Of a stretch of DNA of 64,000 nucleotides, positions 4,754 to 53,363 are shown in pieces. The DNA comes from Aldrovandia affinis (lineage: Eukaryota > Chordata > Actinopteri > Notacanthiformes > Halosauridae), in NCBI GenBank assembly GCA_029706075.1, contig JAINUG010000134.1, forward strand, positions 62,001-126,000. The letters are read 5' to 3'. The position numbers and the translations under genes are program-made. Position 1 is the stretch's first letter; every line of letters starts with the position of its first letter. The notes under the pieces were generated by a model. That model was not told the DNA's origin. It worked only from the letters and a program-made list of their open reading frames with translations, and searched no databases.

Positions 4754-4789
<36 letters not shown>

Positions 4790-20510: not shown

Positions 20511-22069
20511 CTATACGTGCGGGAGGGACACCATCTCACCATCCACCTCAAAGTCTTCGGCCCCGTCGGGGGAGAAGAGGTAGGTGGGGGGCTTCCAGGG
20601 GGACTCCTCCAAGCAGGAGGGGTAGAGTTTGCCCACGGCGCAGCGGAAGTCCTTGCCCAGGTCCCAGAGGACACGCTCGGAGACGGGCTGCCGCAGGTAC
20701 CAGCGGTCCAGCTCCAGGTCGTACTGGTAGATGGCGTACTTGGCGCGCTCGTTCATGTGCGTCTCGCGCATGAAGATGCAGAGTGAGCCCAGCAGGGGCA
20801 CTGCCCGGACGCACGGGTCCGAGTAGCGCTTGGCCGGGATGTTGGCGCCCAGGCGCCACTCGTTCTTGGCCACATCGTAGACCTCCACCGTCACCGAGGA
20901 CCCGTCGACGGTGCTGGTGGGCAGCCGGACGCCCGAGTTGCTGACCACGTGCAGGCCGCCCACGTAGAAGATGAGGTCGCCGAAGGCGGCGGCGGAGGCG
21001 AAGCAGCGGCTGGTCTTGCGCATGGCCATCTCGGCCCAGGCGTCGGCGCGGGGGAAGTAGCAGTAGGTGAGGTCGTGGGTCATGACATAGACGCAGTCGC
21101 GCGCCGCCACCGCCGTGCTCCAGTTCCAGGCGCAGGGCAGCGGGCTGACCATGGTCCACTCGTCGCGCTCGCGGTCATAGCGCTCCACCGTGCGCTTGTT
21201 GAGCTCGCCGCCCACGCTGTCACCGCCGATGGCGTAGATGAAGCCCTCGCAGTGCACCAGCGACGGTCGGATGCGGGCGCACAGCATGGGCGTCTTGGCC
21301 ACCCAGGTGTTCTGCTGCGCGTCGAACCAGAAGAAGCCGTCAGCCGAGCGGAAGACCGCCTGGAGGCGGCCGCCCTTGCCGTGGTTGGCGATGGAGGTCT
21401 TGAGGGGATCTGGCCCCCGGCGATGAAGATGTCATTATCCGGGGTGACCAGGGTCCCCACCTTCTGCAGGTCGCCGGGCGGGTTGCTCAGCTTGTACACT
21501 TTCTCCGCCTGCGGGCTGTAGCACACGGCCGAGTGGGGGGGGCACGCCCCGGGGCCGCTGTCCGAGGCGGGCTCGGCCCCCGCCGCCTCCACGAAGATCA
21601 GCATCTCCTCCTTGGTCATGCCCAGCCTCGGCTTGAAGAACTTGGGCATGGACTTGTAGAGGCCCTGCACCACCACGGACTTGTCGTTGGGCGGCAGGCC
21701 CTGGAACCAGGCGCGCTGCGTGACCTCGGAGAGCGCGTCGATGCGGATCTGGCTCAGCACCGAGGACAGGTGCTGCGAGCGCGCCTCCATGTTGTACTCC
21801 AGCCACAGCATGGCCGCCTCGCGCACCGTCTCCTCCTTCTCCACGTTGAGGTTGTCGCTGCTCAGCAGGTCCAGCAGCAGCTCGTGGGACAGCTGCAGGA
21901 AGGCCTCCTGCCGGTACACAGCGGGGAACTTGTGCTCCACCATGCGCTTGGCGCTCTGCTTCAGCTCGGTGCAGCTGAACAGGTCGCCGATGCTCAGCAT
22001 GCGCACGCAGTTGTCTGCGTTGATCTTCTTCACCAGGTAGTCCCGGCACTGGAGCAGGACGTCCTCCAC
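20511..22069 (-). CDS. kbtbd2: KBTBD2 last coding exon (BACK and Kelch)
   Basis: A 1559-nt exon beginning [15 protein letters not shown] after an acceptor whose pyrimidine tract is a run of about 13 C. It encodes the BACK domain, the linker [20 protein letters not shown] and the Kelch propeller. The frame steps by one near 21403-21408: upstream reads [14 protein letters not shown], downstream resumes with [17 protein letters not shown] then [19 protein letters not shown]. The family has about one more base in this G/C run. The stop is at 20511-20513. Confidence 0.93.
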
Positions 22070-28000: not shown

Positions 28001-31000
28001 AATTTCCACCTGTGGCCTCTTGTTCTGCTGACCCCACTTATCTTAAAAAATCTTTGGTATTTTACTTTGTTAATCCCTTTTAGGAATTTAAAAACCTCAA
28101 TCAAATCCCCCCTAAGTCTCCGTTTGCTAAGTTTAAATAGATTGACTGCCTTAAGTCTATCATCATAACTTTTACCTTTCATACCAGGTATCAGTTTAGT
28201 TGCCCTTCTTTGGACTTTTTCAAGAGCTTCTATATCTTTCTTGTAGTGCGGTGCCCAGAACAGTATTCTAAGTGCGGTCTGACAATGGCATTATATAACA
28301 TTAATATAACCTCCTTTGTTTTATACTCAATACTTCTTGCTATGTATCCCAGCATCCTGTTGGCTTTTTTCACTGCTGTAGCACACTGCTTTGATGCAGA
28401 TAGGCTTTGATCAACTACAATTCCTAAGTCCTTTTCAAATTGAACATCTACTAACTTTTCTCCTCCCATAAAATACTCCTGTCTAATGTTTTTATTTCCC
28501 ACATGCATAACTTTACATTTAGCAATATTGAACGTCATCTGCCATGTATCTGCCCATTTGGGGATTTTGTTTAAATCATCTTGGATTACTATAGTCAATT
28601 CCAAACAGTTTGCCAAACCCCCAAGTTTAGTATCATCTGCAAATGTAACTATTTTGCTACTAATGTCCATATCAAGATAATTTATGTAAATAAGGAAGAG
28701 CAGAGGTCCCAGCACCAACCCCTGCGGGACAACACTGCCCACAGCCTGGTTCAGGTCAACACACTTTGTAGCCTCTTCGAAAAAGTCCAGGTGGTTTGTT
28801 AGGCATTACCTCCCTTTGAGAAATCCATGTTGGCTCTCCCTTAAAATACTATTATTTTTCAAGAATGATTCCAACGTATCCCTAATAATACATTCCAGCA
28901 TTTTACATGCGATGCAAGTTAAACTGACAGGCCTATAGTTCCCTGGGTCAGTACGGTCCCTCTTCTTATATATTGGAATTATACTACCCTGCTACCCAGT
29001 CATCTGGTATTTCTCCAGTGATTATGGATTGAATGAAAATATCTGTCAATGGTTTATATATAATTTCCCCAAGTTCTTTGAGTACTCTGGGATATATGCC
29101 ATCCGGGCCTGCTGCCTTATTTGTCTTCAGTTTTTGTAGTTTTTGTAATACTTCTACGTCCCTTATCTCAAAGTCCTCCAAAACATTCTATACCTTGTCT
29201 ATACATTTAGGCATATTTATAACCTCTTCTCTAGTAAAGCTCTCCACAAAGTAACTGTTGTGTGTTTGCAATATCCTTATTATTATAAACCAAAGTTCCT
29301 TCCTTATTCTTAATGCACTTAACCTCATCCTTAACTTTCCTTTTTCTACTACAATATTGAAAAAACTTCTTAGGATTACTTTTTGCCTCTTGGGAAATTT
29401 TAATTAAAAAAAAACGCCTTCTGACTGATCTTATTTCCTTTTTAGTCTTAGCCCGCATATTACAATAATCAAACTTGTTTCTCTCCGAGTTATCCTTTTT
29501 ATATACTCTGTACAGTCGTTTCTTCTGCCTCAAAATCTCCCGTAAAGATTTAGACATCAACTTCGGACATCAACTTTTCTCATCCTATTTTTCCTTACTT
29601 TGGGGATGAATTTACACTACATCTACAATAACCCTTTTAAATATAGTCCATTTTTCATTCACAGTTCTGACCCAATCTTTTACCCAATCTATATTACTTA
29701 AATTCTCTCTCATTTTATTAAAGTCAGCTCGTCTAAAATTAAAAATTCGAGAGTTAGAGGAGGCTGTCTTAACTTGCCAAACAATATCAAAAATAACTGC
29801 ACTGTGGTCACTTGCCCCTATTGGTTCTCCTACCTCTGTGCTGCAAATTCTATCAGGATTGTTACACAAAACCAGATCCAGTATTGATTTCCCTCTCGTA
29901 GGCTGAGTAACAGACTGTACCAAAAAGCAGTCATTGACCATATCTAAAAACTCCTCTTCCCATTTGCCCTGACCTGTCACTATCTCCCAATTAATAGAGG
30001 GGTAATTGAAGTCGCCCATTATTATCGTCTCTCCTTCAGCACAGATTTGTTTTATGTTACCAAAGAGCGTACTATTTATGTTACTGGCTGAAGCTGGAGG
30101 TCTATAGCATACTCATATATTAAGGCCCTTCTCACGATCTGCCAATAATCAAATCCAGATGTCCTCACAAATGAGTTTATACCTGGAATGTCCTGCACAT
30201 TAAGATTGTGAATACACTTTCCATTTAAATATCGAACTGAATAAGTAAAGACAAATAATAAAATCAAACGTAAAATGCAACTAAACAAATGAAACGTAAT
30301 GGCCTATACACCTATAAATACATGAGTATCAAATTGCGTATAAATACCTATAAATATATAAAATACCACATAAATAAACCACAACAAAGTAAAATATATA
30401 CCTACCTAAACTAAAAATAATATGTGGCGGTTAAAATGTCGTTGGGCTTCTTTACAAAGTATCGAAATGTGCGCGTTTGTCGGGGCGCGAAAAGAATTGG
30501 TTTGCCTAGTGTAGTCAATCCATTTAATCCAGCCCTGGCTGTCAGACAGCCCTTTTAATTTCAAAAGGAATATTGTTTTCGTTGTTAGCCCTACTGAATA
30601 GCATTTCATCTCCTTCATAATTCTTATTGTTCTATGCTGTTAAAATAGGCCCGTGTCTCAAAAGTTTGAATAAAGCTTTGAAAAAAAAACCCATGCATTT
30701 TGTATTCTCCGTCATACGTGACATTTTGCCGTTAAGAAAAAAAAAAAAAAAAAAAAAGATTAATCGATTCATTGTTGGTTAACATTGGCGACGATCGATC
30801 AAGGACATTTCTTCAAATTAGCATCCCTATAATGAACATATGCGCAAAAAGCGTCAATGGGTACAATTCCAAAGTTATCTCGAGAGCTAGTTTTCATCTG
30901 GTGTCCCTTGGCAGGTGAAAGATTGACAAGATAGATTCATACAGTACAATATAGGAGAGTATAAAAAGAGTGTAGGCCAGATAAACAAGAGCAAAAAAAG

Positions 31001-31785
31001 CTTCCTATTTACAACATTACACGGTTCAAGTTTACATTACACGTTATTCAAATGCGAAAACGTGTCGCATTTTAAATGATGTGAAAATCGGAATGACAGG
31101 GGAATTCCGATCTGTGGGTTTAGAGGACAGTCGCATTGGCAGATGGGATTTATTTCCACATATGAATGTGTCCCAAAACGGATCTGAAAATATCCGATTC
31201 AATATTTATTTTTCCTGTTTACACGTTCATAATACATATCCGATGTGTGCCACATCTGAGCAAAAAATCGGAATTGGGTCACTTTTATCAGACGGTGTAA
31301 ACGTAGCCTCAGAGGTGAATGCTCTAACAGCCAGCCCATGAAAAGTACTTAATCCTTATTTAAACTAATGAATCCTTATTTCAAAAGCTATCACCCTTTA
31401 AAAAAAAAAAAATGCAATCACTATGAGCCGACTCCTGGCAGGGGGCGGAAGTGGCTTACGGGGGAAATGCTCTCTGCCCCCTACGAGGCCAATGCCCTAA
31501 CCACTACCCCAATAACATAGCTGCCTCAGGAGTGGAGTAAGCCTACCCTCCCAGCTATTCAAACAGAACCCCCCCCTCCAATTCAAAACACTGAACAATG
31601 TTCTTTAAGCCCTTACACTACAGGTCCCAACGTGTCCAGTAACCAAATGGCACACACTGTCGGCTTTCCTGGCAATTCGTAGTACGTACCGTTGGTTGTT
31701 CATTCACAAACTTTTGCCATTAGGGAACAAAGGCGTGCATTGTGATGAACAACGTTTTTTTTCCTATGGATGCAAAAAATGCCTT

Positions 31786-31821
<36 letters not shown>

Positions 31822-32162
31822 AACAAACAAACAAACAAACAAACAAATCCCAGGAAGCGGCTTGTTTGCCGAGTGAATTCGGACGCCTGTTTCCTCCCTG
31901 TTCCCCTTAGCAACACTGATCACCCTCTCTATAGGTGGCAGGCCGAGTGACGCATCATCATCGCTGGCGCGGCGCGGAGCGGCACTCACCTGAAGTAGGA
32001 GCTGCACGTGGCCAGCACCATCTTGTGACAGGGGAACTCGGAGTCCTCCACCAGCAGCACCACGTCCGTCAGCAGCTTCTGCTCGTAGAAGAACTTGAGC
32101 TGCTCCAGCAGGGAGACAGCGTAGTCTGTATTGACCGGCCGGCGCTCACTGAGGTCCGACAT
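20511..32162 (-). CDS. kbtbd2: KBTBD2, BTB-BACK-Kelch substrate adaptor of CUL3 ubiquitin ligase
   Basis: KBTBD2 is a CUL3 adaptor, known in mammals to target the PI3K regulatory subunit p85alpha and so set insulin signalling. Coding exons on the minus strand: 32162-31990, 23995-23830, 22069-20511. The start is the ATG at 32162 ([20 protein letters not shown]). The first two exons carry the BTB domain ([40 protein letters not shown]). The long last exon carries BACK ([19 protein letters not shown]) and the Kelch repeats ([20 protein letters not shown]), ending [13 protein letters not shown]. The product is about 632 residues, close to human (623). One base is missing relative to family sequence in a G run near 21403-21408, between IAGGQIP and the Kelch repeats; elsewhere the frame is clean, so an assembly indel is likely. 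The gene is convergent with AVL9 and divergent from buc. Confidence 0.95.
22070..23829. other. kbtbd2: KBTBD2 second intron
   Basis: Intron between the coding exons ending FLQ and starting VEDVLL. I see a short repeat tail near 23644-23690 (TATTTATATAGCGCCTTTCG, a LINE-type 3' end) and otherwise unremarkable sequence. Confidence 0.6.
24090..24395 (+). mobile_element. CR1-clade LINE, 3'-end fragment
   Basis: Translation gives [20 protein letters not shown] and then [20 protein letters not shown], the C-terminal end of a CR1/L2-type reverse transcriptase ORF. It is followed by a 3' UTR with GAGCCTAGATGGGCTGAACG and a short TTATGTTCTTA tail. The same 3' end occurs in reverse at 27797, so the two are one family. 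It is 5'-truncated and inserted in the first KBTBD2 intron. Confidence 0.85.
25018..25088. repeat. (CA)n/(CG)n microsatellite
   Basis: Alternating purine-pyrimidine tract with CACACGCACACGCGCGCACG blocks, in a KBTBD2 intron. Confidence 0.9.
27264..30829. mobile_element. hAT-type transposon relic nested in the outer element
   Basis: It begins TAGGGATGTTAATG and ends with the complement CATCCCTA, flanked by 8-bp duplications TAATCAAC (27256-27263) and TAATGAAC (30830-30837), one mismatch apart. The segment near 27520-27665 reads [20 protein letters not shown] on the plus strand, like the hAT C-terminal dimerisation region. The rest of the transposase is absent or replaced. A CR1 LINE is inserted inside it. 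Confidence 0.78.
27797..30230 (-). mobile_element. CR1-clade LINE, 5'-truncated, nested inside the hAT relic
   Basis: Reading on the minus strand from about 30230: endonuclease C-terminal part ([16 protein letters not shown], then [12 protein letters not shown] and [15 protein letters not shown]), linker ([20 protein letters not shown]), reverse transcriptase ([36 protein letters not shown], the FADDTKLGG catalytic box, [14 protein letters not shown]) and the C terminus [15 protein letters not shown]. Several stops and frame breaks show it is dead. The 3' end matches the fragment at 24090-24395. It is about 2.4 kb of an element normally near 4-5 kb. Confidence 0.92.
31788..31848. repeat. (CA)n(AAAC)n compound microsatellite
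   Basis: A CA run is followed by about seven AAAC units, 140 nt from the first KBTBD2 coding exon on its 3' side. Confidence 0.9.
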
Positions 32163-32399
32163 GGTCGCATCCCATGAATCTCCCCCCAGTTTCGACTCGC
32201 GCGGATACGGGGGACCCCGGGACCAGAATCAGGACACCCTCCACCACCACTCCCCTCCCTCCCCACAATATATATATCGACTTCTCAAATACAAAAAGAG
32301 GGAAACACCCTCGTACTGTTGACAATGAGGAGGGCGAAAAAATATATGTGTCTCTTGCTCTCACTCTCACTCTTGATTTCTCTCTCTCAGGGCCAAAGG

Positions 32400-37685: not shown

Positions 37686-37745
37686 CACCTGTTGAAGTGT
37701 GGACTCATTAAAAAGCAATTGGAGTACAGGTGTAAGTTATAAAAG
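37686..37745 (+). promoter_or_regulatory. buc: Candidate buc promoter: E-boxes and TATA box
   Basis: CACCTG at 37686-37691 and CAGGTG at 37727-37732 precede TTATAAAAG at 37737-37745. Transcription would start near 37770, about 225 nt before the buc ATG. E-box plus TATA is common in oocyte genes under FIGLA-type bHLH control, which suits a maternal germ-plasm gene, but this is inference. Confidence 0.45.
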
Positions 37746-37994
37746 CCTCTCAAGACGCTTAAGATGATAGAGATTTTGTAGCTCTCCAAATTAAGTGCAC
37801 TTTTCTTCCCACTCTGAATTTCATAATCACTTTCACGTTTGAGGTAGTGCGTCTTTCATAGCACATGCATTCGTGGTCATACGTTTTTTGGCAGGACGTT
37901 TGTTAATCCTATTATTTATTATATTTATCTCAACAGTATTACGGTGTTCAGTATCCCGTGCAGCGTCTTTCTGTCCTAGAATTCACGAGAGAAA

Positions 37995-40900
37995 ATGGAA
38001 GGTAAATGTTAACTTTTTACTAAATGCTTAAAATCGTATTTTTTAAAGTGAATTTCAGTTAAAACCACTGCAGTATTAATGAATGGTGCTGTAGTTGGCC
38101 ATATCAATCTTTTTAACTACGCAAGGATCCGAAAGAGGGGAGACTTTGTAAACGAACTAGTTGGTTAACCATTCTCACTCTTCTCTAATTAACCATTTGA
38201 ACTAAAAAGACACGCATGCTTCTTGTATCAAATTACAATTTTGGTACAGCAGATAACTAGGAATGGAATGTTTCCCCTGCACAATACTATCTATCTGTAC
38301 AGTGCATATCTCCGTAAAATACATGGTGGTATAGCTAGTTGGTCAATTTAGACCGTCAGACCACGTTTAGACGACTTCTATCGAATAAACCATAATTTTT
38401 TAGCCTTTTCATAATACTTTAAAAACTCTGCCTTCTAAGCATTTTTATATAGTGCCGGGTTAATGAGACCGACTACTTTCCTTGTTTTGCATCTCTAGAT
38501 TTAATCTTTTTTAAATGTACGAAGTACACGCCGTACACTTTGAGGCTTGCCTTCGATTAGTGTAGCTGTTCTACGTATATCTAACAGCTGTAGCCTAAAC
38601 ACTGGAACTAACCCCATTACTGCCAACTACCAGTCATCTAGTTTGAAATCACTCCAATTTAAATTTTGTTACACCAACTATGTACCCAATTTCACAAGCA
38701 AATTGTATAATTAGCTGATATTGCTAAATTGAGTGTTCATACGCAACGGAAGAATATCGGTTGCTTGTGATTTGATCCAATATCTAGCTTTGGTTGTAGA
38801 TTTTGCCAGAATAAATTGTAATTCGCTTTATTAGCACAGTGCCACAATCTCTTCCCGGTTAGGTTGCTATGAACCTCTAACGTTGCTACGACTCTGCCTA
38901 TACTAGTTGCGTATTTCGGTTGGATACCGGTGCAAATTACAGTTCCCGATGGATTATCGGCCCATTCCACATTGACATAATCTGTTTTCTTGGATACATC
39001 CGTAGCTATATATTTTTTTGTGCACCATATTCGAATCAGAATGTATGCATCCCGGTTTCTTTCTTGTGCTTGGCTAACGTATATTTGCCAGTTGAATTGT
39101 CACCTGCATGCTGGTAGGTCTATATTAAGAATTCGCGTCAATATGGTTTCCAATCTCCTGTTCAACAGCACTCGACAGAATTTACTCTAACATTCTAAAC
39201 GATTCCCTTTTCGAAAAATTGCAGTTTGCTTCCATGTTGTACTTTTGAGTAAGCGTGTATGGATCGTTTCAAAATGACCACGTGTTGTTCACAAGATTTC
39301 CTCATGCTCTGGGAGAATATTGAAAATATGAATGTATTGGAAATGGTTTCATGGAACCCCGTTTATGTATCTTTTTTCTTCTTCCAATGCTGAGACCTTT
39401 CCCTAGAGTAGGGATTTCAAACTCCAGTCCTGGATGGCTGCAGTGTCCAGTGTGTTGTACCTTCCTTTCAATCTCTAGTCAATTTAGACCTTGGAAACAA
39501 GCTGTGTGGACGATTTGACCAATCGATTACTTAAATTAAATGAAGCAGTTGACTGCAAAAACGCATCCAAAAACAAGCAGACACTGCAGTCCTCCTGTGA
39601 GATCCCTGCTCTGTATTGTGCAACTTTCATCCCAAGTGCAGATGCTTCTCATTGTTTGACAGAGGTGAACAATCCTCCGCACTCAATGGGAAGTGGGCAG
39701 CCACATCATCCAGTTAATCACACAAGACCGTTTTTCTACGTTCAACCACCTTCTCAACCTTATTACATGTACCAATGGCATATGAACAATCCGTATGGAC
39801 ACTATGGCTTCCCTGGATCAGGTAGGACATGCATGTTTCCTGTGGTAGGTGTGGGAAGCCTCACACTCACTATTCTACAAATGGGTGGAGCTACCGCGTG
39901 CTGTCTCACTGGTATCAACCAATCAAAAGACTGTTTACCTAACAGAATTCTTTGATTGGTTCAAGATTGGTCACTGACAGCACATGGGGACTCCACCCAT
40001 TATGGTGTTCATGAAGGCTCTCTTCCACTGTGCTTTGTGTGGCAGGATGTACAAGCCCTTGTCTTGTCCAAAGTTCATCAATGTCTTAATCATTTTGAAC
40101 ATTTAAATTCAGATTGTGATATCCTCTTTGGGGCAATACAGCTTTCATTCATTCATTTGCATATAATTTATAAGCTTAACATTTGGTAGTCTGAGGAAAA
40201 TAAAACTATTTGAGAAATGCTGGTGTGAGAATACAGAAGTTTGTTTAATATGTATTTCAAACTGCGCATACTCAACGGATGTACATTTTACAAGAAGTAA
40301 TCATATGCTTGACAGGTTTCTTTTGATGATCAATCATGGCAGCAGTGCAGAAAATGTGCTTTAAAGTGTTGGATTGATTTTGATTCTCAATGTTTTTCTA
40401 CAGGCATCCCTTTTGGGCGTCCGTATATGCCCCCCTACCCATACATGCAGTATCCAGGCTACATCATCCCGCATGCGCCAATGCAGCCAGTTGATTACAG
40501 AAGAATGTACAACCCACACTTTCCCTCTGCCGCGTCCTACGATGTCCGATTCCGCCACCACCACACCCGTATGCGCCGGGAGACGGCCTGCTCGGAGGCT
40601 CAAACTGACCCCAGCGATGCTGTAAACCAGCTCATCGAAAGCCTGGACAAACTCAGGACCCGCAACACGGTTGCTGAGAAGGAGCTGGATTCTGGAATCA
40701 TCTCGCCCAACTCATTTTTGCCGGGGGGAGACTCAAAGCACGAGGGGCCGAGTGAGGACCTTGAGGCTTTACCTGCAAAATCGTTTCCGTCGTCAGATGG
40801 CGCCCGCTTGTCGACATCCGTTGCGCTGTTTGGCACCTCGGCTGGGGCCACATGCAAGTCTGAATTGAGCCAGAGCCGCTTTGAGGAGCTGGCTCAGGAG

Positions 40901-43900
40901 GAGGGCTGGTCTGTGGGCTCTGACGGGGTGCTGCCCCTTGACAGCTCCTCCATTCACGAGGAGAGTGTAGCACAGAAGGAAGAGAAAGAGGAAGAGGAAG
41001 AGAAGAGGAGGAGGAGGAGAGTTTCAATTGCACTGTGTGCCTGAGAAGCTGAGTCTGTCAAGCCTGCAGGTGGATGATTCTGGGAGAGCAGACTGTAAAG
41101 ACCAGACGGGCTGTGGTGTCGAAGTTCAATCTGAATTGGAACAGGGGCAGCAGCCAGGTTCCGCGCAGGACAGCAAAGGGCCCTCGAAGAACATTGCCAG
41201 TCCCGCTTGGCCTTCACCTGACCCACCGCTGCCGCCATCTCAACTGTCCAGCTGGCCGGTGGAAGAAGTTGCTGGAGAAGGCGCTCAGCATGTCAGCCAT
41301 GAGGTCTCTAAGATGCCCCAGGCTTGCTCGGCTGACACGGTGGGAGGGAAGGATGATGTGCCGGAAAAGCCGGGCCCCGAACTGGAGGACCTGCCTTACC
41401 GAATACTGCGGCTGCCCTGCGACAAGGTGACCACGGCCGGGGTGCTGCAGAAGGACAACCCCCTATGGTACATGGACTCCCTGTCCGCCCTCATCCCACC
41501 ACACACCTACCTGTCCTCACTCGGGAACGCTGCCTACTACTACAGCTACTACCCGCCCACGTCCCAGGAGAGGCAGAGCGTCCTCAGCGCCTCGCTGGAC
41601 GAGCTCTCCTCCAGGGATGAAATGTTCTCTACCGACCTTGAGGACATGGATCTGATCTCAGGTCACGTCTATACAGGTGGGAGGCTGGCCGAAGCACACC
41701 ACGAGCCCAAGCAGGCCCCTACTGGTGAGGGGAACGTTAAAACCTGCTCCTTTCGCCAGGAGTGCCTCGTCTGCCCAAAGATGAAAATGTGCGGGACCTG
41801 TGGCTCGAGCCTTCTCAAACAAACAAAGAGGGGCAAGGCCCACCACTCCCCGGGAGCCTACGACTACTGCACAAAAGAGGACACTGACGAAGAGGTGATT
41901 GAGGAGGAAGACGATGAAGACGATGACGATGGCAAAGCACTGAGGAACACCTGTGAGCCCAGGAAGGCCTCCATGAAGAGGCTTTCTCGTTCGAAGAGGC
42001 CCTTGCATCTCCCTCCTGTCCGACAGATGCCCAAACAGAAATGCAAGAAGGGCTGCTGTGAGGGGCCAGGCGACCCCGTCGTTCTGGAGGAGCAGACAAT
42101 CGATTACCCTGCGGCGCCTGAATGCTGTGAAGAGCACAAGGCCATGGCTAAAGCGGAGAAGTACAAGGGCCTAGAACCAAGAAATTCTCAATCCAGACCT
42201 CACCCAGGTAACCTTCTTGCAGACCTCTGGTTCCATGCTCCATTCCTGACACATTGAAAGTGATGTCAAAATCCCAAATTAAGAATTTGAATCATTTCCA
42301 TTATGGTAGTCTTAAAAAAACAAACGCATTTAAAAAAACAAAACAAAAGGGTTAGCCAATGGCTCTCACTATGTAGCTGTAAACCTTGGTTTAAGTTGAT
42401 CACCTGTACTCAAACCATAACTCTCAGGTTTATTTCTGAGGTTCATGTGTATGTATGCATGTATATCTGTACTGAGCCAGGATGATCATTGAACACAATT
42501 TTGATATTTAAGTGCCCTATCACAATCTGTGATTACCTCACCTTACCATATTTTTCCAACTTTTCCTACTCCTCTTCAATTCACATTGCAAGCTTTCACA
42601 CAACCTAAGTTATGCCAGAGATGACCTCCAAATGCATCAATGGTGAATCTGTACTTTGGCTTTGTGTCCTGGTCCAGGCTTTGGTATGGTGTGCAGCTGC
42701 CAACAATGATGTCTATTGCAGTGTTACTACACTGATCTCTTGCACTAACCATGATTCATCTTACCATGTATAAATGCACTTTTTGTAAGTCACTCTGGAT
42801 AAGAGCATTGCTAAATGGCTAAAATGTATGTTAAGTAGACATTTTGGGGGACAGCCTGCTTTGACGTAACAAATCAAAACAGTGGCAGTTTCTCATGGAG
42901 ATGAGTTACTGGAACGTTTTGCCTTTTTAAATCAAATTTTATTTGGAAAATGATTTAAAATGTGTGAACTAGACCATTATAATGTATAGGGCTGAAACAT
43001 CATTCAATGTAATTAGTTTATGGTAGTTGCTGACTCCAGAAAAGCTGAAACATGTCTTGTCCCAGTCAGCATGGCATATTGCATAGGATAGTTCGGGTGA
43101 AAAGCTTTAATCTTGGCTCCCCTCTTGTAGACAGGCAGTGGAGAGAGGGCTCAATGGCTTCGGACCAGGAGAGCTGGGAGAGTTGCGGTGTCAAACTAAG
43201 ACCCAAGTCATGTAAATCCCATCCATCACGAGGACAAGGTAGATTGCCGTTCAAACTGTTTTTGGGAACATTCTGGGAATGTTTTGGCTTACATTTACCT
43301 CCATGGGGTAGCGAACTGGGGTTAGACTGGTTTGGTTTTACGTTTGTGTCCAAATCATTGTGCTGCCTGGAGATCGCAGAGAAGCTAACATTTAAGGGAC
43401 ACTGTTCCCTGTGCCTCTAGTCAGTTCATCAGAAATGTGTGATTTTCTTGCCGTGTCATCATTTACAGTGTGAATAAATTATACCAGTAACTGCAAAAAT
43501 AAAGGAAACACCAACAATGTGTTATAGGGTTTTGGGACACACGAGCTGCCAGAACAGCTTTAATGCACCATGGCAGAGATTCTACATCTGTCCATCCCTC
43601 TATTGGAAGGGATGCAACACCATTCTTCCATGACAATCATTTGGTGTTCTGTTGATGGTGGTGGGAACCACTACAAAATCTGTGTTCAATTGGGTTGAGA
43701 TCTGGGGATTGAGGCGGTCATGGCATATGGTATACATCATTTTCATGCTCTTAAAACCATTCAGTGACCACTTGTGCCCTGTGGATGGGGGAATTGTCAT
43801 CCTGGAAGAGACTACTCCCAACAGGATGAAGATGCTTCACTGTAGGATGAAAGTGATAAATCAAAATGGCTTTGTATTTATTGGCATTTACCTTGCCCTC

Positions 43901-44301
43901 TAAGTGGCTGAGTGGACCTAAAACATGGCAGGAAAATTTACCCCACACCATAACAGAGCCACCAGAACCCTTCATTTACCAAGTGTTTCCTTTAGTTTGT
44001 CAGTTACCTGTATGTCTCCAAACATTCTGCTCTCATTCCTCCAGAGAGGCCCTTGCGTAGGACCACCTGTAAGGCGCTTGTGTGTCAGAGGCCTCGCAGG
44101 ACTGACCTCGAGGACAATGAGGAGGGGGAATTTCCACGATTCCACAGGGGCAGAGGTAAGGCCTTGTCTCTCACTCTGAATGGGATGCTGGCACTGTGAT
44201 GGTGAAGCCTTTTTTTAAACCTGCATGTCTGTGAATTGCCTAATCGCAAGTCTCTGCTTCCCCTAGGGTCCACTCAGAGGAGGCACAAGATGCAAGATTA
44301 A
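37995..44301 (+). CDS. buc: Bucky ball/Velo1 germ-plasm organiser (tandem copy 1)
   Basis: Buc is a disordered, prion-like protein that nucleates the Balbiani body and germ plasm in oocytes. Exons: 37995-38001 (ATGGAAG only), 39663-39821, 40404-42207, 43131-43238, 44045-44155, 44267-44301; all introns are phase 1. The start MEEVNNPPHSMGSGQPHHPV matches zebrafish Buc MEGINNNSQPMGVGQPHHPV, which also explains the 7-nt coding first exon. The BUVE region follows (RPFFYVQPPSQPYYMYQW; PYMQYPGYIIPHAPMQPVDY; ETACSEAQTDPSDAVNQL). Exon 3 has an acidic run, a C-x2-C-x5-C-x2-C cluster and ILRLP plus AAYYYSYYP motifs. The tail ends RFHRGRGSTQRRHKMQD, with RG repeats. Length is about 740 residues, against 639 in zebrafish. 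The frame steps by one base in a GA-rich run near 40978-41025. The neighbour bucL shares the architecture. Confidence 0.92.
40404..42207 (+). CDS. buc: buc exon 3 (main exon)
   Basis: Carries most of the protein. It opens GIPFGRPYMPPYPYMQYPGY, runs through VDYRRMYNPHFPSAASYD, and reads in one frame to the E/R-rich run before a TGA at 41042-41044. Sequence continues in the next frame as QLHCVPEKLSLSSLQVDD, and bucL has EEQCVPSYPDILLVGG at the matching place, so the second frame is true coding. The second part has LPYRILRLPCDKVTT, SLGNAAYYYSYYPPTSQE, CLVCPKMKMCGTC and an acidic block (EEVIEEEDDEDDDD), ending before donor gtaacc. Confidence 0.9.
42776..42835 (-). repeat. Teleost interspersed repeat, partial reverse copy
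   Basis: GTAAGTCACTCTGGATAAGA followed by GCATTGCTAAATGGCTAAAA is a degenerate reverse copy of the 10007-10206 family. It lies in buc intron 3. Confidence 0.55.
43484..44010 (-). mobile_element. Tc1/mariner DNA transposon, internally deleted copy B, in buc intron 4
   Basis: Ends CAGTAACTGCAAAAATAAAG and its complement (CAGTTACCTG at 44001-44010), flanked by TA on both sides. On the minus strand it reads GSVMVWGKFSCHVLGPLSHL and then SLFQDDNSPIHRAQVVTEWF, typical Tc1 transposase catalytic-domain sequence with the DDN-PIHR signature. Its right end lies 34 nt before the acceptor of buc exon 5, so it supplies intron sequence close to the branch-point zone. Confidence 0.87.
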
Positions 44302-44779
44302 ACTGCACCGCATTAACCTAAAAAGAAAAAAGATGAGATGAAAAGGAAATTAATCAAATGTTAAAGAAAAGCACTTATTATGGAATGCACACACAAAATG
44401 CACACTAATGAAATTAATGGGACACCTGTGTTTTTGTATTTGCTTTAGGGGAACCCCCCCCCCTGCACTTCCACTGCCTGATGACTGCATGTTCCAACTA
44501 CTCAAGCCTGGCTGGCGTTGACCTCACTGGGCTCCATATTGACACTTAACCCGCCACGGTTGTCCGTTTCTGGGAACTGGGTCTAAGTCCCCCCCCCTAG
44601 GTGTCAAGGTGGATTGTCCAGTGGTCCTGGCATCCTGGGTGTGGCTTGTTTCAGGCGGTGGAAGCGCAGATCCTTTTTGACTCCAGTAAATTCTTTTCAG
44701 CAGCTGGTGGGTCGGTGTTTCTAACAGCCATTTTTAAGCATTGCGATGTGTTTTGACGTCCGTGTACAACTGCGGTGTT

Positions 44780-44785
44780 AATAAA
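44780..44785 (+). terminator. buc: buc polyadenylation signal AATAAA
   Basis: AATAAA lies 479 nt after the TAA at 44299-44301, followed by a GT-rich stretch (TGTGCTCTTGTGTT) from about 44810. This gives a compact 3' UTR. Confidence 0.6.
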
Positions 44786-44829
44786 ATATTTTGCATTGCA
44801 CTTAAAACTGTGCTCTTGTGTTCTATTTC

Positions 44830-46330
44830 ATTTTAGTGTTTTCATTTTGCGTTTTGACATAACCATGTTGAATTAGGGTTTTCAGTCCTTAGGGGACCAG
44901 GAATCCTTGTTGGGGTGCCACTACTTCACATTACCAATGTTTGATTTCCATATGGGAAAGGCCTGTCCTAACCAAAACAAGTCAATATAAAATTGTGGTT
45001 TCAAGCAGTATAACTTCAGGCATTCCAGAATCCATTGTTCCACATCTACAAATGTCACTCATTCTGTAAAACCTGTTCTTGGCCACTTAAACCCATTTGG
45101 GGGGTTAAATGGGTTAAGTTTACCAAAGTTTATCCTAAAGAGTTTCTGTGAATTTGTGTCCATTTTTATCAGTGCATTAGTGGTAGATGCAGCACAGAAA
45201 CCTGGAGGACTGAAACCATTTCCAGGAGTGCAAATGATACAAGCTGACATTGGCGCACACGTTTCTTTTGAAAGGAAACACTGGTGTGTCTGCCAGGAAA
45301 CTGGCCGCTTGAATTATGCTTACGCTTAACTTAGGCTTACGTATTAACTCTATGGTAAAGGCCACGATGCTTTTGGTGACGTTACCTGTTAACTGGCCCA
45401 GACATGGGCTAAAGTGTTTTTTCCATGCCAATGTGATTACACCTGTTCACTGTTCCTAAGCTGATTGGTCAAGAACTATCAGTCTTAAATAAACCTGGAA
45501 CGCCTCTCCTTCTGTGTGCTGTTTGGCTCTGTAAGTTCAGTTAATTCTGAGGATTCTCAAACATCCCAGTTCATAACTCCAACTGCATTAGTGGAAAAAT
45601 ACTATAATCTTGTTTCACTTGCCATGAACATGCATTTTGGCAGTCTTTGGTATAAAAACAAGGACTGGCACTGTTCAAACTAATTGCTAAATGACATATA
45701 CTGTGTATATATAAACTAATTTGGAGGATCCCTTAAGCACTGGCTTTGTGACATCTAGTGGTAAAACTAAGGTAGTGCTTTGGAATAGCCTCTCAATCAA
45801 TACAAGGTATGACGGGGATCCATCTACAGAACCTCTATTTACATGATATGGATACACGAGTTTAAATTCTGGAAAGGTTGCGCCTATTTATGGCCATCTC
45901 TCCAGCATGATTAACTCGGAAAACCCTTTGCTGTTAAGCGATATTAATAGATTTATCTTTAAAGATATCCCACGCAATTCAAACAAGTGTTAGAAATGAC
46001 CAGTTGGTAGGTATACGTCACTGATTTTTACGGAGCATGTCTGAATTCATTTCTAAATCTTACCCCAAACTGGAATAGGAACAGTTTCCACTGGATGAGA
46101 TCTGTATGGTTTACATATACAGTATTCACATTTAATATTAAGGAGCAGGGACACCTGTTGTGAAGAGGTAGTGTGGACACCGTTTTGCCTTATCGGTATA
46201 AAGCACATTCCTTTTCGACCTCCTCTGTGGTTGAAATACATTTATAGAATATATATAACGACCAATGTACTCGTGAATTGAAAATTAGTTCTTTTCGAAC
46301 ACGCCACGTTTCTCGTCTGATTGGATTTAG
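44830..46330. other. Spacer between buc and bucL
   Basis: Non-coding, AT-rich. A CTCF-like CCACTAGATGTC occurs on the minus strand at about 45753-45764. There is no recognised gene or transposon. A second, minor TATTTATAG near 46526 could serve as an alternative bucL TATA. Confidence 0.45.
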
Positions 46331-46366
46331 CAACCCCATGTGATGGGTCTGGGCCCATTATAAAAC
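46317..46366 (+). promoter_or_regulatory. Candidate bucL promoter: inverted CCAAT, E-box, TATA
   Basis: CTGATTGG (inverted CCAAT) near 46317, CATGTG at 46337-46342 and TTATAAAAC at 46358-46366 form a compact core promoter about 640 nt before the first bucL ATG found. The order E-box then TATA repeats that of buc. The TATA sequence is nearly identical in the two genes. Confidence 0.4.
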
Positions 46367-47007
46367 AATGCCCAGAATCCCCAAGCAACCAACCGAAACT
46401 CCCCGTGCTCTTATGTGCCCATGAAACCCGATAGGTCACTTACGGCACTATATTTTGATTTCAGCCAATGGCAGAGTCTTTCCACTTTATTATTCTAATA
46501 TTATCGTCACCTTCCTTAATGACCTATTTATAGTCAGGTGTTCCCTGGGCGCTTTTTTTTGGCGAACGTCTTCCTTGCGAGTATGTAGGAATATCAGCTT
46601 TGAATCAAACACATTTTTACCGCCAGCTTGTACTTGCAGTTGTATGGACTATGTTTGAATGTTTTGCTATGCAGTTTGTCTCTGGGGTTTAATACGTTTG
46701 GAATTTCAACATTTCTAAAGTCCAAAATGTAACCGTGTTTAGTGACCCTCTCCACGTGCACTTTGTTTTATTTTGTATATTGTGCTGATCGCAATTCGAT
46801 CCTTTGTTGAGTTGAAATTGGCAGATGCTTTCTAAAGTTTGACAAATCAAGTGTTTAAAAAATAGACCAATCTGACCATTTAAATGCTGCTGTATTTCAA
46901 CCCCAGGAAACGTTGGATGGACTAAGAAAATTAATACTGAAATGGTGCATCTGCTTGAATCTTGTTTTTATCTCCCCTCCACACCTCCCACCCCACCCTT
47001 TTCTCAG

Positions 47008-47309
47008 ACATGGCAACTACCCAGCATGCTTTTGGAGCTGGGCCTCACGGCCAATACAACAGCTTTCCCAGGCAAAATGGACCAGAGCCAGGCGGCGGGC
47101 CCCAGAACTCGGCGCACCCGGGCCTTACAGGTCTCATCCTGAGGACCCGCACCATCACCACCACCTGCCCCAACCCCAACCCCAACCCCAACCCCAACCC
47201 CAACCCCAACCCCAACACCGGCCTTACTTCTTTGTGCAGCCCTCCCAGCCCTTCTACCCATACCAGTGGCCTGTGCCTATGCCCTACAATCCGTACTGCG
47301 GCTTCCCTG
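47008..47309 (+). CDS. bucl: bucL exon 2 with PQ repeat in the prion-like N terminus
   Basis: Starts MATTQHAFGAGPHGQYNSFP and ends MPYNPYCGFPG. A His run (HHHHH) and eight Pro-Gln pairs come from (CCCCAA)8 at 47168-47215. The start frame would read this tract as Pro-Asn; the frame of the conserved YFFVQPSQPFYPYQW reads Pro-Gln. The frame must therefore change by one base upstream of, or within, the repeat. The donor gtagga is followed at once by a 10-bp tandem repeat. Confidence 0.82.
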
Positions 47310-50300
47310 GTAGGAGAAATCTCGTTCTCTCTCGTTCTCTCTCGTTCTCTCTCGTTCTCTCTCGTTCTCTCTCGTTCTCTCTCGTTCTCTCTGTTTCTGT
47401 CTCGTGCCCACTTGTTGCGTAATTGGGTTTGTTTTTTAATGAAAGCCGGTAATGGTGTCATCTGTTTCATCTGTTTTGTGTGTTTTTTGCTTTTTGCGTA
47501 CTGCGAGCCCTCGTAGAAGTGCTCCACGGAGGCCTGTCTGTCGGTGAAGGGGTCTCCATAGAGCTCTTATGGCCATGCCTTGGCTGCATTTGAATTGCCA
47601 TGCGTTTAACGGATGGTAGCGATTTCAAGTTTTATTACCAAGTGGGGAGTTGGGGGCAGGCACAGCCTTTACAGAACAGTTTTGGCCCACGATCTTCCAC
47701 TAACTGTCATCGTTTGCAGTTCAGACCAAATCCATGCTGAAAGTCTGGGAGCTAATCTTAATGTTAACATGCTTCACCCCCCCCCCCCTCCCTCATTAAA
47801 AAAATGCATTCAAGTATTGCCTTAAATCTACAGCCTTCATTTCTCTTCCTCAATTTCCCTGTATAATAAAAAAAATATATATATACTACTACTACTGTGT
47901 CCCTGTGACCACTTAAAAGACCGATCTCATTTAATAAGATAAATTAATCTCAATGTCCTTTCTAGATGGATTGAAAGGACTGTGGATTGTGGTGTATTAT
48001 AAGGATATTTCAGGGTCCATGGTGAAACTAAAGTGGCTGTGTTTATAGCAGGGGCGGTGCTAGGTACTGAAGACATTCGGGGCTTAGTCCACGGACAGAC
48101 ACAAGGCATACACGAGGCGGGACTGTGGTGTCCAGTGGTTTATCGCGGTACTTCGTTCCATTACATTATGCTTCTGATTAGTCATAAGAAAAACTAGGGA
48201 GGAAAAAAGTCACATCGCGTGGTTATATATATATTTAAAATATATATTTTAAAAGATCTGGGGCTTTTCTAAAAACATTCGGGGCTTAAGCCCATTAAGC
48301 CACCCCCTCGCGCTGCCCCTGGTTTATAGTCTAGTGGTAGTTTATAGAGCACATAAGTGAGTTTAGAAGATGTATAAGGCTGTATGAGTTCACATACACA
48401 TATCCTGTTCTGACTGTTACATATTGCATACCTGTGGTGGGTGGCTGCGGTAGCACTGGTGCGTTTGTCTCATACCGCTTCACTGTGAGGTCTGAACGTT
48501 TATTTTTACCATGTGGTATTGATCTCACTTGATGGTGCTTTCTAGCCAGAAATTCCTGTATGTATGATGTGCATGTTGATGATCATTATGTGGGCTTGGA
48601 TTCAGTCAGCATTGTACTGTGGAATTGTTCATGTTTCTTCTCACAAAAGTAGTTTTGCAAATTACGGTAATGCAAAAGTCAACTGGCCAAACTGTTTGCA
48701 AATCAAAAAGTGTCCTTTGCATTTATTTTGTAAATGTAATGTTCAGGACGAATGTTGATTGAATCCAGGCCATGGTTGTAACCTTCACTGGGAAAAGCCG
48801 TTGATGCGCACATCACATTTAGCCGAAGTACCAAGCTGAAAAATGGCATGTGTAATAATTAAAGGACACTGCACTCTTAATGCTTCACACCTGTACTGGT
48901 AAAATTCAAAACCGAGACATATCGTACAGGACCTGACAAAGATTCTGTAGGACTGACGCATAAATTTCACCAATAATGGTGTGGGACATGAATTACCAAC
49001 CATCACCATGGACCCTTGTAACCCACTAATGTAGATGCTGCACACTTATTGTCCAAATGAAACGGTGGCCATTTTACATGTTCTCCTGTCCTACAGGTTA
49101 TGGCATGGTCATGCCCCCCTTCCCATCCAGCCCGTACATGGAGGCGCCGGGCTACATAGTCCCCCACGCCCAGCTGCACCTGGCAGACTACAGGCGCATG
49201 GTGAACCCCCACTTCCCCCAGACCATGGCCTACCACACGCGGAGGTTCCGCTACCAGCAGAGCGCCGCCCCCCGCGAGACCGCCAACTCTGAGGTGCAGA
49301 CGGAAGCCCCGCCCGTGTCCCGATGCGAGTCCCGCGACGCCGCCTCCCCCGCCGGGAGCGCTCACCTGGTGGGACCCGACTCGGGCAGGGGGAGCAGCTG
49401 CGCCGACGCCTCATCGCCGCCCCAGAGCCACGGATCCCGCACACAAGCTGGGACCCCCCCCGATCACCCGGATCCTGAGGCCATGCCGACGACCGCTCCC
49501 ACCATGCCCGCCGGCTACGTCTACCAGAAAGAGGAGGTGCGGATTGAGTGCAGCGGCTCTCCAGTGGGGCTGAAGATTGTCCGCTCACATGAGACCAGCG
49601 CCCAGTCAGTGCCTGGCGCCCCCTCTGGAGACCTGGTGCAGTGTGACGTGTGGTCGATCAGCTCCGCCGAGGGGGTCATCCCGCTCTACCGCTCCTCCGT
49701 TCACGAGGGCGAAGTCACAGGGGACCGGTCCTGCCCTGGTGCGGAGGAGCAGTGCGTGCCCTCCTACCCAGACATCCTCCTGGTGGGTGGGCCGCCCACG
49801 TCCCACAGAGAGGAGCTTCCCGCACTCCACAGCTGCGATGCTCCAGCCGAGCTGCTGCCGTCGGAAACCATGGGAAAAGTCATAACGCCAGGGTGCGGGC
49901 AAGGGCCGTGGGGAGAAGCGGAGATGGACCGCCATCATGGACAACGATGACGAAGGGCATGCAGCCAACTCTGTGAAGAACGTCCACTTCAAGATCCTCC
50001 GGCTGCCCTTCGAGATGCAGTACCTGGAGGACCTGCGGAAGCTGGAGGAGTCTGTGTGGTCAGTGGAGTCGCTGGTGCCGTACGTCCCCTCCGCTGAGTG
50101 GATGGTTCAGCACCGCTTTGTGGAGCCCGAGGCGGCAGCCGAGAGTTCGGTTGTCGAGGTTCCCATGGAAACCAGCACCAGCCAATCGGAAGCCCTCCCC
50201 TCCCTGGAGACCAGCCGGGAAGTGGCGGTCGTGCAGAACAGGAGCCAGCAGGAGTCCCTGTCCTCCTTGGACTCCCTGCCACCCTACCTGCCCTCCACAA

Positions 50301-52757
50301 GCTGGCTGGCCGACTTCGGCAATGTGTACTACTACAGCAAGTTGCCCCTGAACGTTCAGGAGCAGGTCACCATTGTTGGGGCTCCCGCAGACCAACTCGC
50401 TGTTTGGAAAACACCTGGCAAAGAGCAGAGGGGTCAGCGCCCCACGACTGCTGCAGCCCCCCACAGGCGGAAGGAGGAGAAGCGCAGGCGTTGCCGGAAG
50501 ACTGAGGGAAGGGGCGACTTGGACCGTGACGGTGCCCCCGCCCCGCCCGACGAGGCGCGGCGGAACTGCGGCCGCTGTTTGACGAAACGAAACGTTTCCG
50601 CCGGCCCGGACCTGACGACGGCTGCGACGGTCAAGAGGCACAGGGCCACTCACCCATCCGCAGCCAGCGATCCGCCCAAAACGCTGACCTGCTCGGCATG
50701 CGAGTGCGGCTCGGTGAAGCCCGCCACCAGGAAAAGGCCTGTCCCGGGTGTCCCAGGCCACCGGGTCGAAGGCGAGGAGATGGAGGATGAAGCTGTTGAG
50801 AACAGAGCGCACCCCACCGTGACCAAACAGCAGCAGCAGGGCGGTGAGCCCGGGATGGCTGTTGACGCACGCAAGCCGGCATCCTCTAAGAGGCACTCGG
50901 AGATGTGCTCCGTGGCACTGTGCTCCAAGCTCCGGGAGCAGAATTGCTCCTGCGAGAACCCCCAGCGAGGTCCCGCCCGAGAAGGCCAGAGGCGGGGCCT
51001 CCTCGCCGACACCACAAAGGAGGGAAACGAGATTGCTGCCCCGTCGATCCCTGCAGCAGACAAATGGAAGACTGCGGAGCAGAAGAGCCATCAGACTGGT
51101 GTGTTCATTTTCACGTGTTCCCATTTCGGTATTACACATACCACTGCTTGTTACTCTGCACCTGAAATCATGTGTTTTAGATGTCACTGTGTTTTACTTT
51201 GAAATTCACTGTTTTGTACTGTGCTTTCTGCGTGTACTTGTGGGTCTGTGGTAAAGCCAAAGTGAAATTTCCCTGTTATGTTGACAGTGAAGTTTTTCTG
51301 GTTGTTGCTATGAGCAAAACTAGGTGTCTGCAGAAAACCCTTGAAATAAAATTGCTTTGAATACATGACATTCTGATTACGTTAGAAATGTACAATCCCT
51401 AGTATTTTCAGGTACTAATTTCATGTAAACTTTGATAGGCAGTGTGTCTGTTAGCCGGCACTGGGTTCATATGCACAATATAAATTGCTCTTGAAATGAC
51501 CTAACTGCTAACTAGCACTCATTTTTCTCTGACAAAGCACATCAGTGCAGTTTTTAGTACAAGTACAATTAACCGGAAGCTTGAATGAGAATGCGGCTTC
51601 TCCTATATTCCTCCTAGTGCACACTAACCGCATTAAACCTTTCCACTGTAATGCGCATATTCTTTTGTTAATTGGACATCTAATCAACTGCAGTGTGTTC
51701 TCTGGAGTGAAGGCTATTGGCCCCTGTTCCGTGCGGAAGGTGATAAACCATAAACCTCACTTCCCTTTCTTAGAGAAGTTATGGAGAGCCACCGTGGCCA
51801 TTTCTGACAGAGAGAGCTCTGAGAATGGAGAGAGGCCAAGAAACGTAAATAAGCCAAAGAAAATGTCTACTCAGACACAAGGTGAGACGGGGATCCTTTC
51901 TTTAACACCTGTTCTTTGGTTGCTGTTAATTTATTTTGAGACTGGGAAACATTCTCATGCATGCTTTTTATTATACTTTTGTTTTTCTCACATTTGTTTT
52001 TAATCATATTATATGCTGTCTTGTTGTTGGTTATTCTTTTTAACTACTTTAATTCTCCAGAGAGGCAGCAATTTAAGATGTCAAACAAGGCTGTTACACC
52101 GAGGTCCCAGAATACAGATTTCGGTGAACCGATTGAAGGATACTATAAGAGGTCAAATTGGACCAAAGGTTGGTTGGTGTTTGGTTTTTGTACCATCTCC
52201 TCTGATTTGTTAAGTAAAATAAAGCACTCCGAATTTCAAATTTTCAAAGATTATACTGGGTTTCAATTTCTGCCAACATTTCTATCACGTTTAATTGACA
52301 AGGTACAATTGCTCTTATTACTATATGAAAATCACAATACTTGCAGAACTTTTTTGTGCAAATTAGAAATGGAGAAATTGGACAGTTGCCGAAGCAACGT
52401 TGTAAGTAACATTGGGCATGGTAATGTAGAAATTGTGATTATCACGACTTTTTTCCTCCTGAAATGTGGTCAGCAGCCAGATTGAATAAAATATAATATA
52501 ATGGCTACCACAGATTTATGCTGCCGGCTTTTCCTCCAGTGTCCAACAGTCACAACTACTACTCCGAGAATTGTAATTAAGTCAATGTAATGTGGTAATG
52601 TGTCAAATGATTGATTTGATTATTTCTTCCAGCATGTCACCATGCAGTGACCTGCAATGCAATGCAGTTTTATTTGTATTCAAATGTATATATTTTTAAT
52701 TATATGGGTGTTTTCATTTCCTTCTCAGGAACCCACAGAAGAGACACCAGATACTAA
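47010..52757 (+). CDS. bucl: Second bucky ball-like protein (bucL, tandem copy 2)
   Basis: Diverged paralogue of the adjacent buc. Exons found: 47008-47309 (ATG at 47010), 49097-51098, 51774-51881, 52061-52168, 52729-52757; introns phase 1, exon 4 the same length as in buc (108 nt). Diagnostic matches: YFFVQPSQPFYPYQWPVPMP, YMEAPGYIVPHAQLHLADYR, MVNPHFPQTMAYHTRRFR, ETANSEVQTEAP, FKILRLPFEMQYLEDL and NVYYYSKLP. It starts MATTQHAFGAGPHGQYNSFP. Because exon 2 begins two bases before this ATG in phase, a tiny upstream coding exon as in buc is possible but was not found. The frame breaks twice: between 47110 and 47170 and near 49890-49950. Net length is about 848 residues. The C terminus, NWTKGTHRRDTRY, lacks the RG repeats of buc. 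Role in germ plasm is inferred from family only. Confidence 0.88.
47168..47215 (+). repeat. (CCCCAA)8 coding hexanucleotide repeat
   Basis: Eight exact CCCCAA units; the other strand is (TTGGGG)8, able to form G-quadruplexes. It is inside bucL exon 2. Confidence 0.95.
47317..47392. repeat. 10-bp tandem repeat (TCTCGTTCTC)n at bucL intron 2 donor
   Basis: About seven exact units of a 10-mer, starting 8 nt after the exon 2 donor. It is pyrimidine-rich on the sense strand. Confidence 0.92.
48049..48321. mobile_element. Non-autonomous hAT element with perfect 8-bp target duplication
   Basis: Left end CAGGGGCGGTGCTAG, right end complement CAGGGGCAGCGCGAG. GTTTATAG at 48041-48048 is repeated exactly at 48322-48329. 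It is 273 bp long with no coding capacity, and lies in bucL intron 2. An internal AT palindrome (ATATATATTTAAAATATATA) lies near 48227. Confidence 0.9.
49097..51098 (+). CDS. bucl: bucL exon 3 (main exon)
   Basis: GC-rich 2002-nt exon. It opens GYGMVMPPFPSSPYMEAPGY and runs in one frame to a TGA at 49948-49950, then continues in the next frame as DNDDEGHAANSVKNVHFKIL. The ILRLP motif shared with buc proves the second frame. It holds two copies of a motif (SVESLVPYVPSAEW at 50060-50101 and SLDSLPPYLPSTSW at 50264-50305), a basic stretch (RRKEEKRRRCRKTEGRG), Cys pairs (NCGRC; CSACEC) and ends AEQKSHQT before donor gtgtgt. Confidence 0.88.
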
Positions 52758-52851
52758 TTTTCACAGAAGCACCATCAACCAATGAAACGGAAGCACTTTT
52801 TCCCATCGACACTATTTATGAACTGCACAAAGCACCTTTTTAAAAACACTG

Positions 52852-52857
52852 AATAAA
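52852..52857 (+). terminator. bucl: bucL polyadenylation signal AATAAA
   Basis: AATAAA about 95 nt after the TAA at 52755-52757, giving a very short 3' UTR. Confidence 0.6.
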
Positions 52858-53363
52858 CACATTTTTGAACAAAGAAATGGCCCTGTGTTTCTGCCAAATT
52901 ATCTCATTTTGTGGGGCATCAGTTTGAAAAGATTTCAGACCTTTAGAAGGTTCCTTTTTGGAGGCTGTTCCAAACAAAATCCTTTCCTGTCCCTCAGAGA
53001 GAGTGAGCGAGCAGATGGGCTTTGTAAATCCGTATTGGCTTCTGCTGTGCAGGCTTTGCGTCTGAAGTCTAATTAATGTCCCAGTTGGCTCTTGAAGGCT
53101 GAGATGTGGTTGTAACTGAGGGCCATGGACAACAAAAGGACCTTCCTTGGCCCAAGTCCCCTCCCCACTCAACTCCTGTTGAGAGTTGCTAATCTGGCCT
53201 CTTGATACCCAGCAGGGTAAAGAAGATACTGGAATAACAACTAGAAAGTTAATTCAAGCTCTAAAGGTAAATTATCAAGCAGAATATACCACCCAAACAT
53301 AGTGGCCTTCCCCCCTCCCCCATAGTGATTCAAGCTAGGCATTTTTTGCAGGGCTGGGTGTAG

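Follow-up and report, generated by a model that had tools for sequence, protein, structure and literature searches.

Organization of the locus

Two genes of the Buc/BUVE family, buc and bucL, lie head-to-tail on the forward strand at 37.7-52.9 kb of the window, the stretch of 64,000 nucleotides of the Aldrovandia affinis genome that we analyzed (C380:62001-126000). Positions without a contig name refer to this window, and the genome searched comprises 1.22 Gb in 2576 contigs. The gene order of the block is LSM5-AVL9-KBTBD2-buc-bucL, placing buc in synteny with kbtbd2, avl9 and lsm5. The tandem of two Buc/BUVE-family genes proposed by the first-pass annotation is borne out by homology and gene structure.

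KBTBD2 occupies the reverse strand upstream of buc (20514-32165), and is identified by its BTB exon and by matches to the solved structure of human KBTBD2 in the PDB (E = 3.8e-167 and 1.5e-116). When the kelch part of KBTBD2 was used as a query against its own genome, it recovered itself with 731.9 bits, and none of 14 other matches exceeded 67.4 bits. No further close copy of KBTBD2 was found in this search, which scored only the best candidates and leaves absence unproven. The AVL9 exons (4061-6576, + strand) match PF09794 at 5476-5679 (E = 4.4e-14) and 6337-6576 (E = 2.2e-18), and the piece at 4061-4615, with no Pfam match, is assigned from its position and by eye. LSM5 is located approximately 11.5 kb upstream of the window at C380:50154-50504 (PF01423; LSm5 chains of the PDB). 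Beyond the window, the contig also carries an RNF31 gene (HOIP UBA family) at C380:27625-29507, and a second RNF31-like locus is found at C125:2304183-2304524.

Two mobile-element traces lie among the neighbors. The UnaL2 family takes its name from an eel, and a UnaL2 LINE 3' element is found on the reverse strand at 10020-10073 (Rfam RF00436, 66.1 bits). Also on the reverse strand, 27982-30112 contains open frames that by eye resemble a decayed non-LTR retrotransposon.

Skugor et al. (2016; PMC5080839) described a tandem buc-bucL in the kbtbd2-avl9-lsm5 region of the spotted gar. The same source places a single buc next to kbtbd2, avl9 and lsm5 in the elephant shark; in teleosts, it places buc2 beside the kbtbd2-avl9-lsm5 block and buc1 between rnf31 and rnf152. 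Judged from the sequence, the pair in the window is a further member of the known gar-type arrangement. In contrast to the gar, the Aldrovandia genome has a second buc, two RNF31-like loci, and an RNF31 gene on the KBTBD2 contig. Gene 1 of the pair is linked to KBTBD2; in the zebrafish, by contrast, buc is assigned to buc1, the paralogue with rnf31 and rnf152 as flanks.

The linkage to KBTBD2 had been put forward as a fixed anchor for sorting the copies. This anchor is not new, because the gar tandem pair in the kbtbd2-avl9 syntenic region was already published (PMC5080839). It is also less simple than supposed, given the second buc at another locus and RNF31 on the KBTBD2 contig. That RNF31 is found on the contig of the kbtbd2 block goes beyond the literature we found, and therefore these markers fail to part buc1 from buc2 cleanly here.

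Structure and motifs of buc

The coding region of buc (37995-44301, + strand) consists of six exons, assigned from splice sites, phases and matches to bucL and to the second buc: 37995-38001 (the coding part of exon 1), 39663-39821, 40404-42207, 43131-43238, 44045-44155 and 44267-44301, which carries the stop. All five introns are GT-AG and phase 1. Exon 4 has 108 nt and exon 5 has 111 nt. Upstream, the TATA-like box TTATAAA at 37737-37743 (+ strand) may act as the core promoter, and an E-box, CAGGTG, is located at 37727.

The N-terminal BUVE region of buc extends from RPFFY to QTDP (39725-40612, + strand), contains intron 2, and was aligned with those of bucL and the second buc. The region is aromatic and prion-like, as judged against the published description rather than the zebrafish or Xenopus sequence. 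Its aromatic content (Y, F and W) is 16.8% in the N-terminal 125 aa vs 4.6% in the part of exon 3 that follows a break in the reading frame. The interval of this break (40971-41044, + strand), where the open frame changes, includes an (AGGAAG)n array at 40977-41020.

Zebrafish Buc binds Vasa through residues 372-394, of which D379, E386 and S389 matter (PMC8533965). The corresponding region of buc, ERQSVLSASLDELSSRDEMFSTDLED, is located at 41568-41645 (+ strand) and follows the motif as described in that paper. Set against the residues named in the paper and its helix letters ERQS and RDEM, the stretch SLDELSSRDEMFSTD contains equivalents of all three, D379, E386 and S389. The C-terminal tail, encoded by exons 4-6 (43131-44301, + strand), has three RG in 84 aa, within the motifs SRGQ and HRGRG. 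In zebrafish, three dimethylated Buc arginines are bound by Tdrd6a/c (PMC8060454), and the recruitment of Tdrd6a is attributed to the Buc C-terminus (PMC8533965). Our count refers to the presence of RG motifs alone.

Gene 1 resembles zebrafish Buc in its BUVE region, its Vasa-binding D/E/S residues and its C-terminal RG motifs, a likeness drawn through published motif descriptions and not through sequence. By description likewise, it resembles the buc homologue Velo1 of Xenopus, which has a BUVE prion-like N-terminus; the accessible part of the published description mentions no tandem partner of Velo1.

Structure and motifs of bucL

The assigned exons of bucL (47008-52757, + strand) are 47008-47309, 49097-51098, 51774-51881, 52061-52168 and 52729-52757, the last of which holds the stop. 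The candidate start is the ATG at 47010. Both exon 4 (51774-51881) and exon 5 (52061-52168) are 108 nt long, and all four assigned introns are GT-AG and phase 1. Re-reading of the splice sites in both genes agrees with the earlier description of phase 1 internal introns, an exon 4 of 108 nt in each, and an exon 5 of 111 nt in buc and 108 nt in bucL. Upstream, we tentatively place a putative promoter, with TATTTATA at 46525, and a non-coding exon 1 ending near 46577 (46525-46577, + strand), whose donor GTATGT was read by eye.

The BUVE region of bucL, from RPYFF to QTE (47219-49305, + strand), has one intron inside and was delimited by alignment with buc. Directly before the BUVE core, a pure (CCCCAA)8 array in coding exon 2 (47168-47216, + strand) encodes a PQ run. 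Another array, (TCTCGTTCTC)8.6, is found at 47320-47405, just past the splice donor of exon 2. The aromatic content is 14.7% in the N-terminal region vs 4.0% in the post-break part of exon 3.

The open frame of bucL changes in exon 3, in the interval 49886-49950 (+ strand). A probable second break lies in exon 2 (47010-47131, + strand), where the ATG frame differs from the BUVE frame. This break assumes the start at ATG 47010, and none is needed if an upstream exon enters in another phase.

Downstream of the exon 3 break, a W-x3-SL-x-PY-x-PS-x2-W-like motif is duplicated within bucL, with copies at 50036-50104 and 50240-50308 (+ strand). Their local alignment score of 64 was reached by none of 2000 shuffles (mean 24.4, maximum 49). 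By eye, this motif appears to be single in both bucs.

On the other hand, the Vasa-binding pattern [RK][DE][DE][MLI][FY][ST] is absent from all three frames of bucL exon 3 downstream of the break. In the bucL block aligned to the Vasa-binding motif, the D is kept and the RDEMFS part is missing. The C-terminal tail contains no RG motif in 81 aa; RG dipeptides do occur in exon 3, outside the tail. What is new here is that buc keeps the Vasa-binding motif and the C-terminal RG cluster, whereas bucL keeps the BUVE region without both and has the motif duplication. Our literature search, which covered its sources in part, found no published statement on Vasa-binding or RG motifs of BucL.

As a divergent Buc paralogue, gene 2 is comparable to the BucL of teleosts (zebrafish bucL2, salmon bucL and medaka bucl), to which we liken it by description only. 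The internal motif duplication and the PQ run set it apart from teleost BucL, again by description only. Unlike zebrafish BucL2, in which the core is reported as not conserved, it has kept the BUVE core.

Comparison of buc and bucL

BLASTP aligned the N-terminal parts of buc and bucL with E = 6e-32 and 95 identities over 259 positions. Matches were also recovered for the YYYS block (E = 3e-07) and for the ILRLP block (E = 3e-04), so the N-terminal aromatic block and the ILRLP/YYY motifs are common to both genes, as had been noted at first reading. Over a 141-column alignment, the two BUVE regions are 50% identical. bucL is a BUVE paralogue that has diverged from buc and lies in tandem with it.

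A Pfam scan of four buc/bucL pieces, with bucL exon 2 excluded, gave no family above its cut-off; PF14812, at E = 0.1, fell below its cut-off and was rejected. A shared promoter was likewise rejected. The local alignment of the two upstream regions scored 14; shuffles averaged 17.4, and 198 of 200 of them reached 14. The upstream similarity is thus no better than that of shuffles, and neither the 10-mer ACACCTGTTG common to both regions nor the TATA/E-box pairs provide evidence.

A second buc in the genome

With buc exon 3 as a query, the genome gave four matches at three genes, namely buc, bucL and a locus on the reverse strand of C2245:4737130-4737659, which is 61% identical over query residues 1-127 of buc. 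We refer to this locus as the second buc. With bucL as a query, three matches were obtained, bucL itself and the two bucs. A further bucL was not found by this own-genome search, in which only the best candidates were scored and absence is unproven, and no bucL was found near the second buc in the 90 kb read around it.

The assigned exons of the second buc are bounded by GT-AG sites, and its exons 4 and 5 have 114 and 120 nt. It retains the Vasa-binding block SLDELSSRDDMFSTD, and its tail has five RG in 88 aa. One frame change occurs, in exon 3. Within C2245:4690003-4776200, it is flanked by a GAD-like gene, one of whose two pieces matches PF00282 below the cut-off of that family, and by an OSBP-like gene, with one of five pieces matching PF01237; the remaining pieces of both were assigned by eye. 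We also considered whether 196 kb of C380 and 90 kb of C2245 belong to one protein-coding paralogon and rejected this, as the non-buc matches looked repetitive by eye among the best 40 ORF matches.

Predicted roles of buc and bucL

Buc proteins organize the germ plasm, which sets the germ line aside in fish and frogs. The subsets of buc and bucL that were retained differ among teleost lineages, and we found little functional work on bucL in the literature. As one genome contains three family members, the two bucs and bucL, the copies can be compared within a single species. A bucL without the Vasa-binding motif but with the self-assembly domain offers a concrete test of the role of bucL.

We consider it quite probable that the locus holds an old ray-finned tandem pair in the LSM5-AVL9-KBTBD2-buc-bucL block, in which buc is the organizer, bucL is a recruitment-poor relative, and the frame breaks are most likely assembly indels. 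From its motifs, the product of buc is predicted to be a germ-plasm organizer, whose BUVE region would self-assemble the Balbiani body. Its central motif would bind Vasa, and its C-terminal RG cluster would bind Tudor proteins. BucL, which bears a BUVE region, would probably enter the same assemblies without the Vasa-binding and tail RG motifs. It seems that bucL lost the partner-recruiting parts, and we infer a scaffold-type BUVE relative with reduced partner recruitment. We speculate about an old division of labor, in which Buc is a scaffold recruiting Vasa and Tudor proteins, and BucL, with its duplicated SL-PY-PS motif, co-assembles and tunes the solidity or client richness of the Balbiani body; in this specific form, the idea is tentative and rather unlikely to be right.

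Alternatively, bucL may act outside the germ line and serve another function. Skugor et al. made this suggestion for bucL2 of the zebrafish, in which the BUVE motif is not conserved and whose role in germ-line formation they doubted (PMC5080839), and a bucL that has lost the Vasa-binding motif and the RG motifs of the tail would fit such a role here. However, the BUVE region is kept in the Aldrovandia gene at the identity to buc given above. In medaka oocytes, moreover, bucl RNA gathers around the Balbiani body (PMC10984276), which leaves room for a germ-line role of bucL. We regard a function of bucL outside the germ line as unlikely.

Interruptions of the reading frames

As assembled, neither gene has an uninterrupted reading frame, with one break in buc and one or two in bucL. 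The first-pass annotation held that both copies were kept. This is likely but less than certain, because the frames of both are broken in the assembly.

As a control, we read the conserved neighbor KBTBD2. It shows one frame break in 21080-21431 (- strand), around 21380-21480 near a run of C, with human residues 112-332 and 323-623 matched in different frames. Programmed frameshifting or a small intron as the cause of the breaks was set aside, since KBTBD2, an unrelated neighbor, breaks too. Past the breaks, the open frames continue for 428 and 438 codons, slightly beyond the exon ends. Between buc and the second buc, dN is 0.29 before and 0.45 after the breaks with a dS of about 1.4, which points to constrained amino-acid change on both sides.

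One or both genes might instead be recent pseudogenes, translation stopping in exon 3 of buc and in exon 2 or 3 of bucL, with the buc on C2245 taking over. The breaks themselves are what this would predict, and salmon buc1b and primate buc are pseudogenes according to PMC5080839. In addition, 8 of the 14 other kelch-type matches in the assembly fall within open frames no shorter than 600 aa, and therefore indels are not everywhere. Several observations speak against decay, namely the similar breaks in KBTBD2 and in the second buc, the long frames past the breaks, the constraint before and after them, and the short tandem array within the break interval of buc. Recent loss of buc or bucL thus appears quite improbable.

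Assembly indels are likelier than pseudogenes or real lesions, though unproven, because the frames past the breaks are long and constrained and because KBTBD2 and the second buc each break once too. What speaks against assembly indels is the large number of breaks, three probable ones in the window pair and another in the second buc.

Age and order of the duplications

We compared the three genes over the columns common to all of them, 178 in the N part and 383 in the C part. The identity between buc and the second buc is 62.4% and 47.5%, respectively. It is 40.4% and 25.8% between buc and bucL, and 38.8% and 24.5% between the second buc and bucL. In each part, the two bucs form the closest pair in 1000 of 1000 bootstraps. 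Among the sites that distinguish the two bucs, bucL shares the residue of buc at 49 and that of the second buc at 41 (p = 0.46), as expected had bucL branched off first. The equal distance of bucL from both bucs suggests that the tandem duplication is older than the split between the bucs, an order drawn from three sequences of one genome with the root not fixed and a faster rate of bucL possible. The gar lineage split off before the teleost genome duplication.

The published tandem pair of the gar fits the order in which bucL branched first (PMC5080839). A later origin of bucL, from the window buc and after the genome duplication of teleosts, with fast evolution making it seem old, is very unlikely: the sole bucL found adjoins the window buc and no bucL match was found in the 90 kb around the second buc, but bucL is not particularly close to the window buc (49 vs 41 sites, p = 0.46), and the gar already has the tandem pair (PMC5080839). 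The earlier view of an old duplication with large divergence holds at approximately 40% (N) and 26% (C) identity between bucL and buc; these values and the equidistance from both bucs rule out species-specific duplicates of near-zero age. With its second buc and two RNF31-like loci, the genome has probably undergone a further duplication.
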